Part shown: positions 4,849 to 33,911 of the stretch, in pieces
How the letters are laid out: the number at the start of each line of letters is the position of its first letter
How positions within the stretch are numbered: position 1 is the first letter of the stretch
Assembly (NCBI GenBank): GCA_016194975.1
Contig: JACQAM010000015.1
Coordinates: 1-33,911, forward strand
Length of the DNA: 33,911 nt
Source: Bacteroidota bacterium
GTDB lineage: Bacteria; Bacteroidota; Bacteroidia; Palsa-965
Direction of reading: 5' to 3'
The notes under the pieces: model-generated
Seen by the model: only the letters and a program-made list of their open reading frames with translations
Database searches by the model: none
What the model was told of the DNA's origin: nothing
Position numbers and translations under genes: made by a program

Positions 4849-4872
4849 TTCATGGGAAAGTATTACTGTCAA

Positions 4873-5031
4873 TAGAGTTTATTCCGAATAAGATACTAAA
4901 TGCGAAACAGGAAACTTTTTGACATTCAAATGAATCAGACTGAGCATCGGGAATACCTTGCAAATGCTCCGTTTTTAATAATGGAGCGCTTGCAATCATT
5001 GTTATGCAAATCTTAATCGATATAAACTCTA
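4873..5031 (+). repeat. MITE-like repeat, family B, copy 1 (159 bp)
   Basis: A 159-base element bounded by the perfect inverted repeat TAGAGTTTAT / ATAAACTCTA. A second copy of identical length lies at 22911-23069 in the same orientation, with about five substitutions. If TA is the duplicated target, the element ends are GAGTTTAT. It has an internal hairpin, with GCAAATGCTCC at 4960-4970 pairing to GGAGCGCTTGC at 4983-4993. Its right end abuts the ATG at 5032 directly, so the element supplies the whole immediate leader of the next gene. No transposase is encoded. Confidence 0.85.
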
Positions 5032-5445
5032 ATGAAAAAAACAATTTACATAGGAATAATAATTTTGCTCTTCGCAGTGAAAAGTTTCGCGGGAAATATT
5101 TCAGGCCCCGATTCGCTCGGCAAAAGCGATCCTAAGAACTGGGATCCGAACGATCCGAACTGTCCGTGCCACCAGTATCAGAAGCAGGCGGAAGATGAAT
5201 GGAATAAAATGAATCAGAATATTGTGGCGAACAATGCAGATTCCGCGGTAGTAAATGCAGATCCGGATTTAAATTCAATTCAACAAGTGCAATCAAACAA
5301 CGCTGTAACCCAACACCGGAAAAATTATTTCCACTTTGAAAAATTTCTCATTCAAAAAATTCACCGCATGAAACGAAATTTAATCGGCGGAACAAAACGA
5401 TCAGTGAAAGGTAAATTCCGGCTGGTCGATTGTTTTCATTTCTAA
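5032..5445 (+). CDS. Small secreted protein of unknown function
   Basis: A 137-residue protein I do not recognise. Residues 1-20 form a clear signal peptide (Lys-Lys, hydrophobic core, then SFAG), so it should be exported. The mature part begins with an Asp/Pro/Asn-rich stretch containing WDPNDPNCPCHQYQ, whose Cys-Pro-Cys-His could bind a metal or form a disulfide. It continues as a polar, Asn-rich region and ends in a basic Lys/Arg-rich tail (HRMKRNLIGGTKRSVKGK). The start codon touches the end of the family B repeat, so translation signals must come from that repeat. It converges on the aquaporin gene 16 bases away. The signal peptide and composition make a real gene likely, but function is open. 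Confidence 0.65.
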   Translation: MKKTIYIGIIILLFAVKSFAGNISGPDSLGKSDPKNWDPNDPNCPCHQYQKQAEDEWNKMNQNIVANNADSAVVNADPDLNSIQQVQSNNAVTQHRKNYFHFEKFLIQKIHRMKRNLIGGTKRSVKGKFRLVDCFHF

Positions 5446-6255: not shown

Positions 6256-6420
6256 AGAGGCTGTCTAAATTTCATCCTTCTGTTTTGTTATGCGCCATTT
6301 TTGTTCATCCTTCGTTGCATTTCTTGGCCGTAGTCGCTCCACTATGGCCTGCAAAATGCGCCTCGGCTGAACAAAAATGGCATCATAACAATTCCAAAAA
6401 ATGAATTTTAGACAGCCTCT
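6256..6420 (+). repeat. Fold-back MITE-like repeat, family A, complete copy 2 (about 165 bp)
   Basis: The ends are inverted repeats, GAGGCTGTCTAAA on the left and its complement on the right. Each side is followed by TAA, which looks like a 3-bp target duplication. The interior is also palindromic along nearly its whole length: TTGTTATGCGCCATTTTTG near the left end has a near-perfect complement near the right end, and the centre pairs GGCCGTAGT with ACTATGGCC. The whole element could fold as one hairpin. An inverted copy lies at 1-138. TNA target sites and GAG ends are, as I recall, features of the IS1031 subgroup of IS5-family elements, so a non-autonomous derivative is plausible. It sits 8 bases past the stop of the mutase gene. 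Confidence 0.88.
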
Positions 6421-15166: not shown

Positions 15167-17860
15167 ATGGAGATCTCCAAAACATACGACCCGAAAGCCG
15201 CCGAAGACCACTGGTACAACTGGTGGATGGAGAAGGGATTTTTCCGATCCGTTCCTGATGATCGCGAACCTTACACCATTGTGATTCCTCCTCCCAATGT
15301 GACCGGTGTATTGCACATGGGCCACATGCTCAACAATACGATCCAGGATGTGCTCGTGCGTCGCGCGCGCATGCTCGGAAAAAATGCACTCTGGGTTCCC
15401 GGCACCGACCATGCTTCCATTGCTACCGAAGCGAAAGTTGTTGCATTGCTGAAAGAAAAAGGCATTTCTAAAAAAGATCTTTCACGCGAGGATTTTCTGA
15501 AGTATGCGTGGGAATGGAAAAAAAAATACGGCGGAATAATTCTCGAGCAACTGAAAAAACTCGGCGCTTCCTGCGATTGGGAACGCACGCGTTTCACTAT
15601 GGAAGAAGAACTGAGTGAAGCCGTGACCGATGTTTTCATTGATCTCTATAAAAAAGGATACATCTACCGCGGCACAAGAATGGTGAACTGGGATTGTGCC
15701 GCACTCACCGCGGTTTCCGATGAAGAGGTGATCATGAAGGAAGCAATGTCGAAACTTTTTTATGTGAAATACCAAATAGAGGATTCCAATGAATTTATGA
15801 CGATCGCAACTACGCGGCCGGAAACTATTCTCGGCGATACGGCTGTTTGTGTTCACCCGGATGATGAGCGTTACAAAAATTTAAAAGGGAAAAAAGTAAT
15901 TGTCCCATTGGTGAATCGTGCGGTCAACATTATTTTTGATGAATACGTTGACAAAGAATTCGGAACGGGCGCTCTTAAAGTTACTCCCGCGCACGACAAG
16001 AATGATTATGAACTTGGTAAAAAACACAAACTCGAATCGATCGATGTTCTGAATCCTGACGGGACGATGAGTAAAGCGGCGCAATTGTACATTGGCGCCG
16101 ATCGTTTCGCTTGCAGGAAAAAAATTATAAAAGATCTTGAGGAGAAGGGGCATCTTGTAAAAGTTGAGGAAATCAAAAACAATATTGGTTATTCCGAAAG
16201 AACGAATGCGGTGATCGAACCGCGCCTTTCCATGCAGTGGTATGTGTCGATGAAAGAAATTTCAAAACCGGCATTGGAGAATGTGGTGAATGCGAATATT
16301 AAACTCATCCCGGAAAAATTCATCAACACTTACAAATACTGGATGGAAGGTGTGCATGACTGGTGCATCTCGAGACAATTATGGTGGGGACAAAGAATTC
16401 CTGCATGGTATGACTCTGATGGGAATTTCGTCGTCGCAAAAACAAAAGAAGAAGCCATCGCGCAATTCAAAATTAAAAATTCAAAATTAAAAATTGAAGA
16501 TCTCATCCAAGACGAAGATGTAGTTGACACCTGGTTCTCTTCATGGCTCTGGCCAATTTCTGTTTTCGATCCGAAAGTTTTTGCGAACGGAAAACAAAAT
16601 GCAAATGCTGATCTGAAATATTATTACCCGACGAATGATCTTGTTACTGCTCCTGAAATTTTATTTTTCTGGGTGGCGCGCATGATCATTGCCGGTTATG
16701 AATACATGGGCGACAAACCTTTTTCGAATGTTTATCTCACCGGAATTGTCCGCGACAAGCAGGGAAGAAAAATGTCGAAGTCGCTGGGGAATTCTCCCGA
16801 TCCGCTCGATCTCATTGATAAATTCGGTGCCGATGGTGTGCGCGTGGGCATGCTCCTGTGCTCGCCCGCAGGAAATGATCTTCCGTTCGATGAATCGCTT
16901 TGCGAACAGGGAAGAAATTTTGCGAACAAGATCTGGAATGCGTTTCGTTTGCTGAGCGGATTTACCGTTGATAAAAATATTCCGCAACCAGATTCTTCGA
17001 AGATCGCCGTGGAATGGTTCAATGCTAAATTCAATTCTTCACTTGCAGAGATCAACGATCATTATTCTAAATTCCGTTTGTCGGATGCACTCATGTCAAC
17101 TTACAAACTGATCTGGGATGATTTCTGCGCGTGGTATCTCGAAATGATCAAGCCGGATTTCGTGGATGCCCGCCCGCCCGCCCGTGCCGGTACGGACGGG
17201 GATGCCCCAGGCGGACGGGGAAAAGCAAATCCAATTGATCAGAAAACATTTGATGCAACAACACTCATCTTCGAAAAGTTGATGAAAGTTTTGCATCCAT
17301 TCATGCCATTTATTACCGAAGAGTTGTATCATCATCTCGCAGAAAGAAAAGCAACTGACGCGATCATTGTTGCGCCGTGGCCGAAGGAAGAAAAATCTGA
17401 TACAGACATTATCGCCAAAGTTGAAGTGCTGAAAGAAATTGTTGGCACTATCCGTAATCTTCGTCAGCAAAGAAATATTTCTCCGAAAGAAAAGCTTGAT
17501 GTTTTTGAAATGAGTAAAGTGGAGCGCTCAACTCCTTGCCGTCTTGACCCGATTGTGATCAAACTTTCAAATCTTAACTCGTACAAGTACACTACGGAGA
17601 AAATTACAGGAGCTTACGGTTTCATGGTAAGTACTGTTGAATTGTTTATACCTATTCAAATCGACGCCGAAGAAGAGAAGAAACGTCTTGCGAAAGAACT
17701 CGAATACAATAAAGGATTCCTCGTTTCCGTTCAGAAAAAACTGGCGAATGAGAAATTCGTTTCAAATGCAAAACCCGAATTGATCGAAATGGAAAAAAAG
17801 AAACAGGCGGATGCGGAGAGTAAGATCAGGGCGATTGAACAACAGTTGGCGAATCTTTAA
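15167..17860 (+). CDS. valS: Valyl-tRNA synthetase, with two in-frame repeat insertions
   Basis: An 897-residue class I aminoacyl-tRNA synthetase that charges tRNA-Val. The HIGH signature is HMGH at 50-53 within PPPNVTGVLHMGHM. The editing (CP1) domain begins near TTRPETILGDTAV, and the KMSKS loop is at 535-539. The anticodon-binding domain follows (KLMKVLHPFMPFITEELYHH), and the C-terminal coiled coil is intact (AEEEKKRLAKELEYNKGFL). Two stretches do not look like family sequence: residues 433-443 (QFKIKNSKLKI), just before DEDVVDTWFSSW, and 668-684 (ARPPARAGTDGDAPGGR). Both coincide with repeats at DNA level and both preserve the frame, so the enzyme should still be functional. The leader and the trailer of the gene also hold inverted repeats. 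Confidence 0.96.
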   Translation: MEISKTYDPKAAEDHWYNWWMEKGFFRSVPDDREPYTIVIPPPNVTGVLHMGHMLNNTIQDVLVRRARMLGKNALWVPGTDHASIATEAKVVALLKEKGISKKDLSREDFLKYAWEWKKKYGGIILEQLKKLGASCDWERTRFTMEEELSEAVTDVFIDLYKKGYIYRGTRMVNWDCAALTAVSDEEVIMKEAMSKLFYVKYQIEDSNEFMTIATTRPETILGDTAVCVHPDDERYKNLKGKKVIVPLVNRAVNIIFDEYVDKEFGTGALKVTPAHDKNDYELGKKHKLESIDVLNPDGTMSKAAQLYIGADRFACRKKIIKDLEEKGHLVKVEEIKNNIGYSERTNAVIEPRLSMQWYVSMKEISKPALENVVNANIKLIPEKFINTYKYWMEGVHDWCISRQLWWGQRIPAWYDSDGNFVVAKTKEEAIAQFKIKNSKLKIEDLIQDEDVVDTWFSSWLWPISVFDPKVFANGKQNANADLKYYYPTNDLVTAPEILFFWVARMIIAGYEYMGDKPFSNVYLTGIVRDKQGRKMSKSLGNSPDPLDLIDKFGADGVRVGMLLCSPAGNDLPFDESLCEQGRNFANKIWNAFRLLSGFTVDKNIPQPDSSKIAVEWFNAKFNSSLAEINDHYSKFRLSDALMSTYKLIWDDFCAWYLEMIKPDFVDARPPARAGTDGDAPGGRGKANPIDQKTFDATTLIFEKLMKVLHPFMPFITEELYHHLAERKATDAIIVAPWPKEEKSDTDIIAKVEVLKEIVGTIRNLRQQRNISPKEKLDVFEMSKVERSTPCRLDPIVIKLSNLNSYKYTTEKITGAYGFMVSTVELFIPIQIDAEEEKKRLAKELEYNKGFLVSVQKKLANEKFVSNAKPELIEMEKKKQADAESKIRAIEQQLANL
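16466..16493 (+). repeat. AT-rich tandem repeat inside valS
   Basis: Two exact tandem copies of the 14-base unit TTCAAAATTAAAAA encode FKIKNSKLK (within residues 433-443 of the synthetase). Each unit alone is not a multiple of three, yet the total stays in frame. The same words occur in intergenic spacers of this window, so it is an insertion or replacement by intergenic-type repeat in a surface-exposed, length-variable region. Confidence 0.7.
17168..17220 (+). repeat. GC-rich palindromic insertion inside valS
   Basis: About 50 bases of very high GC content in a moderate-GC gene. They contain CCCGCCCGCCCG, the quasi-palindrome CCGTGCCGGTACGG and GGCGGACGGGG. They encode residues 668-684 (Ala/Arg/Pro/Gly/Asp only) between KPDFVD and KANPIDQ, which in relatives are almost adjacent. 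Composition, symmetry and position all indicate an inserted element that kept the frame. Confidence 0.75.
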
Positions 17861-22860: not shown

Positions 22861-22910
22861 TCAGGCATTCACCATCTTTCATCGCTTGAAAAAAAATAAG
22901 AACTTTGCAT

Positions 22911-23069
22911 TAGAGTTTATTCCGAATAAGATACTAAATGCGAAACAGGAAACTTTTTGACATTCAAATGAATCAGACTGAGCATCGGGAATGCTTTGCA
23001 AATGCTCAGTTTTTAATAATGGAGCGCTTGCAATCATTGTTATACAACTCTTAATCGATATAAACTCTA
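22911..23069 (+). repeat. MITE-like repeat, family B, copy 2 (159 bp)
   Basis: It has the same length, ends (TAGAGTTTAT / ATAAACTCTA) and orientation as 4873-5031, with about five substitutions. In this copy the substitutions create a perfect 9-bp stem, ACTGAGCAT (22977-22985) with ATGCTCAGT (23002-23010), while weakening the stem seen in copy 1. It ends 16 bases before the start of the cytochrome-like gene, again supplying a gene's leader. Confidence 0.88.
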
Positions 23070-23085
23070 CTCTAAACATTTTTTT

Positions 23086-31652: not shown

Positions 31653-33911
31653 ATGATTAAATTTTTCTGCTCCAGAACAGGATTCTACGTCTTGTCTTTG
31701 TTTGCGTTTTTCTTTTTCGGTTCTCCGATAAAGGTAGAAGCGCAGCTTACCGTAACTCCGGGAGTTTCCGCTGCAACACTTATTGCAAGTCTTGTGGGAC
31801 AAGGTGTGACTGTGAGCAACGTTACCATCAATTGCCCTTCGAATGCTTACGGAACTTTTGCAAATGGAAATACCACGAACATAGGGATCACCAATGGAAT
31901 AATCATGACGACTGGTTCTGCAGTTAATGCAATCGGTCCGAACAATTCAACAAGCGCAGGAACTTGCAACGGAACTTCTGCGAATGATCCGCAACTCACT
32001 TCACTCGATCCGCAGGCTACTCATGATCCATGTATTATTGAATTTGATATTACGCCGGCATGCAATAATCTTCAGATAAGATTTGTTTTCGGTTCCGAAG
32101 AATATCCTGAATTTGTGAATTCCGGATTCAATGACGCTTTCGGACTTTTTATCACCGGACCCGGGCCTGCATGCCAGGCGGGATTTTACAACAACAGCAA
32201 TATGGCAACTTTGCCAAACAATACAACTATTGTTTCTATTGACAATGTAAATAACGTAACGAACAGCGCCTACTACATTGATAATACCGGCGGAGCTACA
32301 ATTCAGTATGATGGTTTCACTACGGTACTTACTCGCAACATCGGCTTATGTCCATGTCAGACTTATCACTGGAAACTTGCAATTGCTGATGCCTCGGATT
32401 GCATTTACGATTCCGGTGTATTCATTGATTTTCTTGCATGCTCGAATGCATTGACAATAACTCCGTCTCAAACAAACGCGGGCTGCTCTGCTTGTACAGG
32501 AACTGCTACGGTTACTCTCACCAATGGAGTTGGCCCGTTCACTTACTCATGGTCTCCTGCTCCGGGAGGTGGACAAGGCACAGCAACAGCAACTGGACTT
32601 TGCGCGGGAACTTACACTTGCACGATCAATGATGCACTTTCCTGCACCGCACCTTTTACTCAAACTTTTACGATCATCAGTTCGGGCAGTCTCACACTTT
32701 CAGGTACGCAAACCAATATTTCATGTTTTGGCAGTTGTACAGGATCGGCGACAACTAATATTGTTACAGGAACAGGACCTTTCACGTATTCGTGGGCGCC
32801 TTCCGGAGGAACTGCGGCTACTGCAAATGGATTATGCGCGGGCACATATACGTGTACCGTTACTGCTTCCGGGGGTTGTACTGCAACACAAACCTTCAAT
32901 ATCACTTCTAATCCGGCCATAACAGATGTTCCCTCTCAGGTGAATGTCACCTGTTTCGGAAGTTGCAATGGAAGTGCTACCGTTGTCGCTGCCGGCGGAA
33001 CTGGAACTTATACTTACGCGTGGGCTCCTTCAGGCGGAACTGCTGCAACGGCTTCTGCTCTTTGCGCGGGAAGTTACACGTGCACGATCAGTTCGCCTGC
33101 AGGTTGTACGCACACTCAAACTTTCACTATCACTCAACCAGCTGCTATCACTGATGTTCCTTCGCAGGTGAATGTTACCTGTAATGGAACCTGTAACGGA
33201 AGTGCTACAGTTGTCGCTGCGGGCGGAACAGGAACTTACACTTACGCGTGGGCTCCATCAGGCGGAACTGCGGCAACGGCTTCTGCTCTTTGCGCGGGAA
33301 GTTACACGTGTACGATCAGTTCGCCTGCAGGATGCACGCACACGCAATCCTTCACCATCACGCAACCTCCCGTAATTACTGCTACGCCTTCGCAGGTGAA
33401 TGTTACTTGTAATGGAACCTGTAACGGAAGTGCAACCGTTGTCGCTGCCGGCGGAACTGGAACTTACACTTATTCATGGGCACCATCGGGTGGAACGGCT
33501 GCAACTGCTTCCGGACTTTGTGCAGGAAGTTACACGTGCACGATCAGTTCGCCTGCAGGTTGTACTATAACACAAACATTTAAGCCCGCTGCTATCACCG
33601 ATGTTCCTTCACAGGTGAATGTTACCTGTAATGCATCTTGCAACGGAAGTGCAACCGTTGTCGCTGCCGGTGGAACAGGAACGTACACCTATTCATGGGC
33701 ACCTTCCGGTGGAACCGCTGCAACGGCTTCTGCTCTTTGCGCTGGAAGTTATACTTGTACGATCAGTTCACCTGCTGGTTGCACACACACGCAATCATTC
33801 ACAATTACACAACCAACTGTAGTTTCAACCACTTCTTCCCAGGTGAACGTTACCTGTTTCGGAAGTTGTAATGGAAGTGCTACCGTTACACCATCAGGCG
33901 GCACAGCGCCA
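31653..33911 (+). CDS. Cys-rich SprB-repeat surface protein with choice-of-anchor L domain (3' end outside window)
   Basis: The frame is open from ATG 31653 to the window end (753 residues, no stop), so the gene is truncated here only by the window. A signal peptide (ending VEAQ) is followed by a choice-of-anchor L domain (about 30-260: GIIMTTGSAVNAIGPN, FVFGSEEYPEF, FNDAFGLFITGPG). From about residue 270 come at least six SprB-type repeats of about 76 residues, the seventh being cut. Each carries five Cys (for example VTCNGTCNGSATV, LCAGSYTCT, AGCT), whereas common SprB repeats have about two. Such proteins are T9SS-exported adhesins related to the gliding adhesin SprB; the expected C-terminal sorting domain lies beyond the window. 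Confidence 0.9.
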   Translation, partial: MIKFFCSRTGFYVLSLFAFFFFGSPIKVEAQLTVTPGVSAATLIASLVGQGVTVSNVTINCPSNAYGTFANGNTTNIGITNGIIMTTGSAVNAIGPNNSTSAGTCNGTSANDPQLTSLDPQATHDPCIIEFDITPACNNLQIRFVFGSEEYPEFVNSGFNDAFGLFITGPGPACQAGFYNNSNMATLPNNTTIVSIDNVNNVTNSAYYIDNTGGATIQYDGFTTVLTRNIGLCPCQTYHWKLAIADASDCIYDSGVFIDFLACSNALTITPSQTNAGCSACTGTATVTLTNGVGPFTYSWSPAPGGGQGTATATGLCAGTYTCTINDALSCTAPFTQTFTIISSGSLTLSGTQTNISCFGSCTGSATTNIVTGTGPFTYSWAPSGGTAATANGLCAGTYTCTVTASGGCTATQTFNITSNPAITDVPSQVNVTCFGSCNGSATVVAAGGTGTYTYAWAPSGGTAATASALCAGSYTCTISSPAGCTHTQTFTITQPAAITDVPSQVNVTCNGTCNGSATVVAAGGTGTYTYAWAPSGGTAATASALCAGSYTCTISSPAGCTHTQSFTITQPPVITATPSQVNVTCNGTCNGSATVVAAGGTGTYTYSWAPSGGTAATASGLCAGSYTCTISSPAGCTITQTFKPAAITDVPSQVNVTCNASCNGSATVVAAGGTGTYTYSWAPSGGTAATASALCAGSYTCTISSPAGCTHTQSFTITQPTVVSTTSSQVNVTCFGSCNGSATVTPSGGTAP
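32472..33911 (+). repeat. Tandem 228-bp SprB coding repeats
   Basis: Equivalent codons of successive units start at 32472, 32712, 32940, 33168, 33396, 33615 and 33843. Periods are therefore 240, 228, 228, 228, 219 and 228 bases. Units starting at 32940 and 33168 are nearly identical in sequence, which indicates recent duplication or gene conversion. The unit at 33396 carries a 9-base in-frame loss near its end (TFKPAAI in place of TFTITQPAAI). The array continues past the window. Confidence 0.92.

Follow-up and report, generated by a model that had tools for sequence, protein, structure and literature searches.

The valyl-tRNA synthetase gene (valS) of a Bacteroidota bacterium carries a short GC-rich block of codons that its relatives lack, which raises the questions of what this block is, how it came to lie there and how the gene has kept its reading frame. 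The best-known selfish palindromes within reading frames are those of Rickettsia, where, according to the original papers of Ogata, Rickettsia palindromic elements (RPEs) reportedly lie in frame within genes, and the initial annotation of valS had drawn a parallel to these elements. The stretch of DNA analyzed here (the window) is a whole contig of 33,911 bases, taken from a genome of 4.10 Mb that is assembled in 28 contigs and is 99.78% complete. The evidence presented below comes from the gene itself, from the family of repeats to which the block belongs and from the genes that carry other copies.

The insert in valS

The product of valS scores 1118.5 bits with the NCBIfam model NF004349 (valine--tRNA ligase; cut-off 704) and matches the valyl-tRNA synthetase of PDB entry 1gax with an E-value of 2.9e-185. 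Among 30 aligned ValS sequences (that of the window and 29 relatives), the block is the sole multi-residue insertion in this protein that is absent from at least 80% of the others. One row (L026), taken from the wrong strand, was dropped, and none of the 28 readable relatives that are left has a counterpart to the inserted residues. The D/N/E and G that flank the insert are joined directly in 14 of these relatives, and in the remaining 14 the loop is still shorter, or is different beside the insert site. In the window the 51 bp stand between GTG GAT and GGA AAA, and in the valS of the nearest congener GTA GAT is followed directly by GGA AAA; the insertion is exact to the codon and the reading frame is kept. 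Compared with this empty site, a single ambiguous G is the only base that could be duplicated target sequence; with inverted ends present and a target-site duplication absent, the valS copy does not qualify as a MITE. The coordinates of the insert and its parts are collected in Table 1.

Table 1. Position and composition of the valS insert within the window
Feature	Position	Strand	Basis
valS, valyl-tRNA synthetase, host gene	15167..17860	+	ORF, 897 aa
Insert, 51 bp = 17 codons, residues 668-684	17168..17218	+	alignment with ValS relatives
Insert in hairpin register CCCG...CGGG	17169-17219	+	placement equivalent to 17168-17218
Outer 27-bp unit, left arm CCCGCCCG	17169..17176	+	21-copy alignment; unit without inner module elsewhere
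Inner 24-bp hairpin, nested	17177..17200	+	outer unit found without it; its core found without outer unit
Outer unit remainder including right arm (...CGGACGGG)	17201..17219	+	21-copy alignment, unit search

The inserted peptide is ARPPARAGTDGDAPGGR, and it consists only of Ala, Arg, Pro, Gly, Asp and Thr, in agreement with the initial annotation, which had described 17 in-frame residues of this composition. That annotation had placed the GC-rich block at 17168-17220; the insertion itself stands and its end moves to 17218, since 17220 would take in two bases of the Gly codon that follows. Its claim that the flanking stretches are nearly adjacent in related synthetases is borne out by the lack of counterpart residues in all 28 readable relatives, and the alignment with valS of close relatives that it had proposed yields a clean empty site. 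It had also named the occurrence of the same residues in many distant ValS proteins as grounds for rejecting an insertion, and these residues are found in none of the 28 relatives.

A search of Rfam with positions 16900-17500 gave nothing up to an E-value of 1. The AlphaFold model of ValS alone has a mean pLDDT of 37, which is too low for locating the insert loop. An AT-rich stretch at 16463 was considered as a second repeat insert in valS and was rejected, as this part of the gene is equally long in the closest relatives.

Hairpin structure and nesting

The base unit of the family is a 27-bp hairpin, CCCGCCYGRATGACNNNGTCGGRCRGG, with a length of 9 codons, and the modules of the family run from CCCG to CGGG. 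The 51-bp form consists of this base unit with 24 bp placed after its first eight bases, and it is found in valS, hisD, mutS, gatA and nadB (where it has diverged), as well as in intergenic copies. In a 78-bp form, the 24-bp module contains in its turn another 27-bp unit; this form is present in uvrA and in a nitrilase-like gene, both of this genome. The base unit also exists by itself, and the 24-bp module's core is likewise found without the outer unit, including within genes. Hairpins of this family nest within one another, each step adding 24 or 27 bp, and the palindromic element that had been proposed in valS is a member of the family made of two nested hairpins rather than one.

Folded as RNA, the single valS copy is on a par with shuffled sequences of equal base composition (z = -0.12), and folded as DNA with its flanks it shows palindromy within the expectation for its base composition (z = -0.15). 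It is the alignment of 21 copies that provides the evidence for a hairpin. In the 21-copy alignment 98.6% of the pair cells pair, with all 500 shuffles lower, and the covariation score likewise exceeds all 500 shuffles. Pairs changed on both sides number only one in these copies, as many as are reached by 395 of the 500 shuffles, and two of the five covariation measures are not above the shuffles. By eye, several intergenic units (L226 and L227 of genome G062, L305-L308 of G068) lie inside or beside unrelated hairpin-like repeats.

Distribution in this genome and across Bacteroidota

The search of the genome for the GC word, proposed in the initial annotation, found copies within and between genes, and a query of 111 bases likewise gave further copies in the source genome. 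The family was then defined by degenerate searches, by a covariance model (R1) built from 21 copies and by a pattern of the 27-bp unit. At E <= 0.1, R1 has at least 21 matches in this genome, at least 20 in G062 and at least 2-12 in 11 other bearers, all of them lower bounds from up to 150 first-look candidates scored per genome; at the same threshold it has no match in four congeners and one genome of the same family. The 27-bp pattern with up to three mismatches occurs 25 times in this genome, 42 times in G062, 25 times in G060, 40 times in G068 (two places being counted on both strands) and 14 times in G067. The same search gave no match in the congeners G001, G003 and G006, and a reversed-pattern control gave none in any of eight genomes.

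Across 84,980 species genomes, an exact 24-base degenerate pattern was found in 19 stretches, all 19 of them from Bacteroidota, and the bearers include Niabella aurantiaca DSM 17617 and Daejeonella sp. JGW-45, which are titled as strains and not as metagenome-assembled genomes. Counting this genome in both cases, the core pattern was matched in 2 of 59 relatives, and the unit with at most one mismatch in 6 of 395 genomes drawn evenly from the phylum. The pattern is absent from viral contigs in an exact-match search, and no family match was obtained in plasmids or, by BLAST with the low-complexity filter on, in phages. The hairpin family thus occurs in few genomes, with a patchy spread and high copy numbers in places, a distribution that a mobile element would be expected to show.

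Reading frame of the copies

For 143 copies from five genomes, the coding frame of the flanks was judged by codon usage with the element removed, using a codon model whose training set was ORFs from these very loci and which is thus mildly circular. This copy set omits 11 places of G068 and 4 of G067, all with three mismatches. Four copies at contig edges were dropped, and of the other 139, 63 are in frame and 42 intergenic, 30 have a coding flank on one side only, 3 lie between opposite genes and 1 was scored as a frame break. Three nested inner modules (L005, L006 and L117) and one same-site pair in two genomes (L240 and L277) are included in the 63 in-frame copies; the nadB copy, found by the covariance model only, is outside them.

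None of the 63 in-frame copies has a stop within the element. They are read mostly in one frame, 51 of them as ARPDDPVGRG-like peptides and the others in frames with 5, 4 and 3 copies; the commonest unit has five stop-free frames (of six), over which an even spread would put roughly 13 copies each. Half of the 30 one-sided copies (15) are spanned by an ORF of at least 180 codons, and this one-sided set could hide broken genes. The sole frame break (L290 of G067, 1001-1027) was judged by eye to fall where the C-terminal piece of a histidine-kinase-like sequence meets a different coding piece, and the unit there is placed as if at a rearrangement point.

Since a length of 27 bp keeps the frame by itself, an in-frame position shows only that the copy has no stop and that its flanks belong to one gene. 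In-gene copies show a flank preference, with RAYG before and GAAAA after the element, that is weaker outside genes, so the insertion may be aimed to some degree. The frame would owe more to selection than to aimed insertion.

Host genes and empty sites

The copy-bearing ORFs of this genome that score over curated NCBIfam cut-offs are valS, nadB, hisD, murF, cobA, ispE, uvrA and gcvT. With Pfam, the insert is inside the domain in an ETF subunit and a carbon-nitrogen hydrolase of this genome, and outside the matched part in an M20 peptidase (L048) and a histidine kinase (L231). In other genomes, MutS, GatA, PheS, polyphosphate kinase (ppk) and GlmM are over their cut-offs with the insert inside, and a beta-CASP nuclease is also among the copy-bearing genes. 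A TrpE-like ORF from another genome (L312) carries a copy and is under its NCBIfam cut-offs. The UvrA of another genome, which is cut by the end of its locus, has an insert site that differs from that of uvrA here.

Clean empty sites in congeners are available for valS, hisD and ispE. Six congeners were searched for each of the latter two, and 17 residues of HisD and 9 residues of IspE are missing in all five congeners with a match. Compared with solved structures, HisD, NadB, MutS and GatA each show a 17-residue gap, and uvrA encodes 35 residues where the solved chain has 5. For a GlmM-like ORF (L104) the best PDB alignment starts past the insert and is silent on the gap, while the NCBIfam model spans the insert; the L112 ORF has no PDB match at 1e-5 in the structure search. 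The residue that precedes the insert is Asp in valS, Asn in hisD, Lys in ispE and Asp in nadB, with Gly after the insert, which suggests that the insert sites are at turns. These turns are probably located on the protein surface.

Several copies share a site or a gene. The core module occurs in L144 (G068) and L153 (G062), around oriented base 1500-1600, in seemingly the same protein region and in opposite orientations, which suggests independent insertions at one loop. L240 (G062), whose ORF has an exonuclease/GIY-YIG Pfam match, and L277 (G060) carry the base unit at an identical ORF site with element sequences that differ; this common site could reflect either shared inheritance or repeated insertion. 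L232 (G000) and L271 (G060) each have two in-frame copies of the unit in one ORF.

Relation to known elements

Several known systems resemble the family in part. The parts of Di Nocera 2013 (PMC3733652) that concern repetitive extragenic palindromes (REPs) report that REPs of both the GTAG and the CGTC type also occur within genes, uvrA and tRNA synthetase genes among them, name Bacteroidetes among the bearers of CGTC REPs, present the CGTC REPs as lacking a dedicated transposase and place RPE-4 and RPE-6 of Rickettsia in the CGTC superfamily. According to the same parts, a CGTC REP has a terminal unpaired CGTC tag, an unpaired CCA tail, a stem of 8-9 bp and a loop of 4-5 bases. The family studied here is like the CGTC REPs, as portrayed there, in being composed of short hairpins, in having intragenic copies in uvrA and tRNA synthetase genes among others, in occurring in Bacteroidetes and in that no dedicated transposase was found; it differs in that only 11 of 125 units have the CGTC tag, in its nine-codon unit and in its nested forms. 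With the GTAG REPs and their RAYT transposases it has in common short dispersed palindromes of which some are within genes, but the 21-copy consensus has no GTAG and the presence of the family is not matched by that of a Y1 transposase.

RPEs are treated in sections of PMC3733652, PMC10969869 and PMC6649704. As characterized in these sections, they too are dispersed palindromes that lie in frame in unrelated conserved genes and also between genes, and the parallel to RPEs drawn at the outset is upheld by in-frame, stop-free copies in many unrelated genes. RPEs are about 150 bp long and belong to Rickettsia (as given in the relevant part of PMC10969869), whereas this family has a 27-bp unit and nested forms of 51 and 78 bp, belongs to Bacteroidota and grows by hairpin nesting in codon multiples. 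The portion of PMC12306157 around its REP-search table has rows for Bacteroidota and does not mention intragenic or in-frame copies. No description of this hairpin family was found in the open-licence literature searched. The behavior that the initial annotation did not know to be described for the family is not new as such, given the in-frame palindromes outside Rickettsia in the sections of PMC3733652 cited above. What is known is that REPs occur in frame in genes, and what would be new is a nested, codon-multiple family in Bacteroidota.

A further likeness lies outside bacteria. Yeast mitochondrial GC clusters and fungal double hairpin elements are GC-rich mobile hairpins that are sometimes in reading frames and sometimes nested; they are mitochondrial, and the likeness to them is one of description only.

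Interpretation and alternatives

A precise 51-bp insertion, a dispersed family and in-frame, stop-free copies in conserved genes, mostly in one frame, are observed. The valS insert is, with high probability, a non-autonomous REP/RPE-like mobile hairpin that entered the gene after the split from the congeners and left no visible target-site duplication. The insert is presumably translated and kept as a hydrophilic turn in a ValRS that still works; translation and tolerance are deduced because the family matches are intact with the insert inside. Intergenic copies would simply be tolerated. Under the proposed mechanism, a short DNA hairpin without a gene of its own would be copied to new places, perhaps by way of a single-stranded form at replication and an enzyme supplied in trans, which is the most conjectural part of the proposal. 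Copies that break genes would be lost, and copies would persist, and then be translated, if they have a length that is a multiple of three, a stop-free frame and a tolerant turn as their site.

A link to RAYTs was looked for through the presence of Y1_Tnp, which shows no correlation with the element: of 18 genomes searched, 17 have Y1_Tnp, congeners free of the element included, and the one that lacks it is the bearer G063 (RAYTs being pooled with other Y1 proteins in this count). The three Y1_Tnp genes of this genome adjoin none of the copies found.

That the insert is an ordinary lineage-specific loop of ValS with no mobile DNA would accord with the variable length of this loop among relatives, but it is refuted by the repetition of the same DNA in the genome, in and between genes, and has practically no chance of being correct. 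Misplacement of a repeat in valS during assembly deserves a thought where the window is the entire length of a short contig in a 28-contig genome; it is extremely unlikely for an insert that is codon-exact, whose pattern recurs in hisD, nadB and ispE and whose family turns up in assemblies made independently, two of which carry strain titles. The message of valS does hold a GC-rich hairpin, which might have been kept for regulation of this gene by attenuation, mRNA stability or a folding pause, yet the same element is in many unrelated genes, Rfam has no match in the region searched and the congener valS is without the element, all of which makes such a role highly improbable.

The byp elements of some yeast mitochondria are bases that stay untranslated, being skipped or cut out. 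A comparable fate here, in which the ribosome skips the hairpin or the mRNA loses it by excision, would fit a GC-rich hairpin in a gene that is exactly removable in comparison with relatives. A skipped element needs neither freedom from stops nor a common frame, however, and all 63 in-frame copies are stop-free with 51 in one frame; the one frame break scored in 139 copies, 30 of them one-sided, lies between two different coding pieces, and non-translation is accordingly rated very unlikely. Membership in the CGTC-tagged REP superfamily is unlikely as well, though less remote: the element shares its behavior, down to targets in uvrA and a tRNA synthetase gene, and its occurrence in Bacteroidetes with what the REP sections of PMC3733652 report for that superfamily, but the tag reads CGTC in 11 and GGTC in 40 of 125 units, and the bases flanking the unit fit no CCA tail on either side. 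Membership is mostly refuted on these grounds, and a common ancestor with the CGTC REPs is possible.

Beyond the reading of the valS insert as a mobile hairpin, a broader proposal can be put forward tentatively, at somewhat less than even chances. It holds that these are codon-multiple, mutually inserting hairpins that spread in and between genes by an undescribed mechanism acting on single-stranded DNA hairpins, keep adding the peptide ARPDDPVGRG or ARLNDEVGQG to essential enzymes of Bacteroidota and are subject to selection at the protein level. The family occupies essential single-copy genes of Bacteroidota, with tens of copies in some genomes and none found in the congeners searched, which shows that the phenomenon is bound neither to Rickettsia nor to its sequence. 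Since the copies can be counted, the family lends itself to the questions of how these elements move, why one frame wins and whether or not new protein loops arise from them. For annotators, an additional GC-rich loop in a conserved enzyme is a warning of possible mobile DNA.

Other repeats in the window

Three further repeats were observed in the window. Positions 1-138 and 6256-6393 form an inverted repeat of 138 bp with 98% complementarity, one arm of which is at the contig end. Positions 4870-5038 and 22908-23076 form a direct repeat of 169 bp that is 95% identical, with 18 kb between its copies. Positions 32583-33911 consist of tandem repeats of about 228 bp that run up to the contig end and are perhaps part of a truncated repeat-protein gene.
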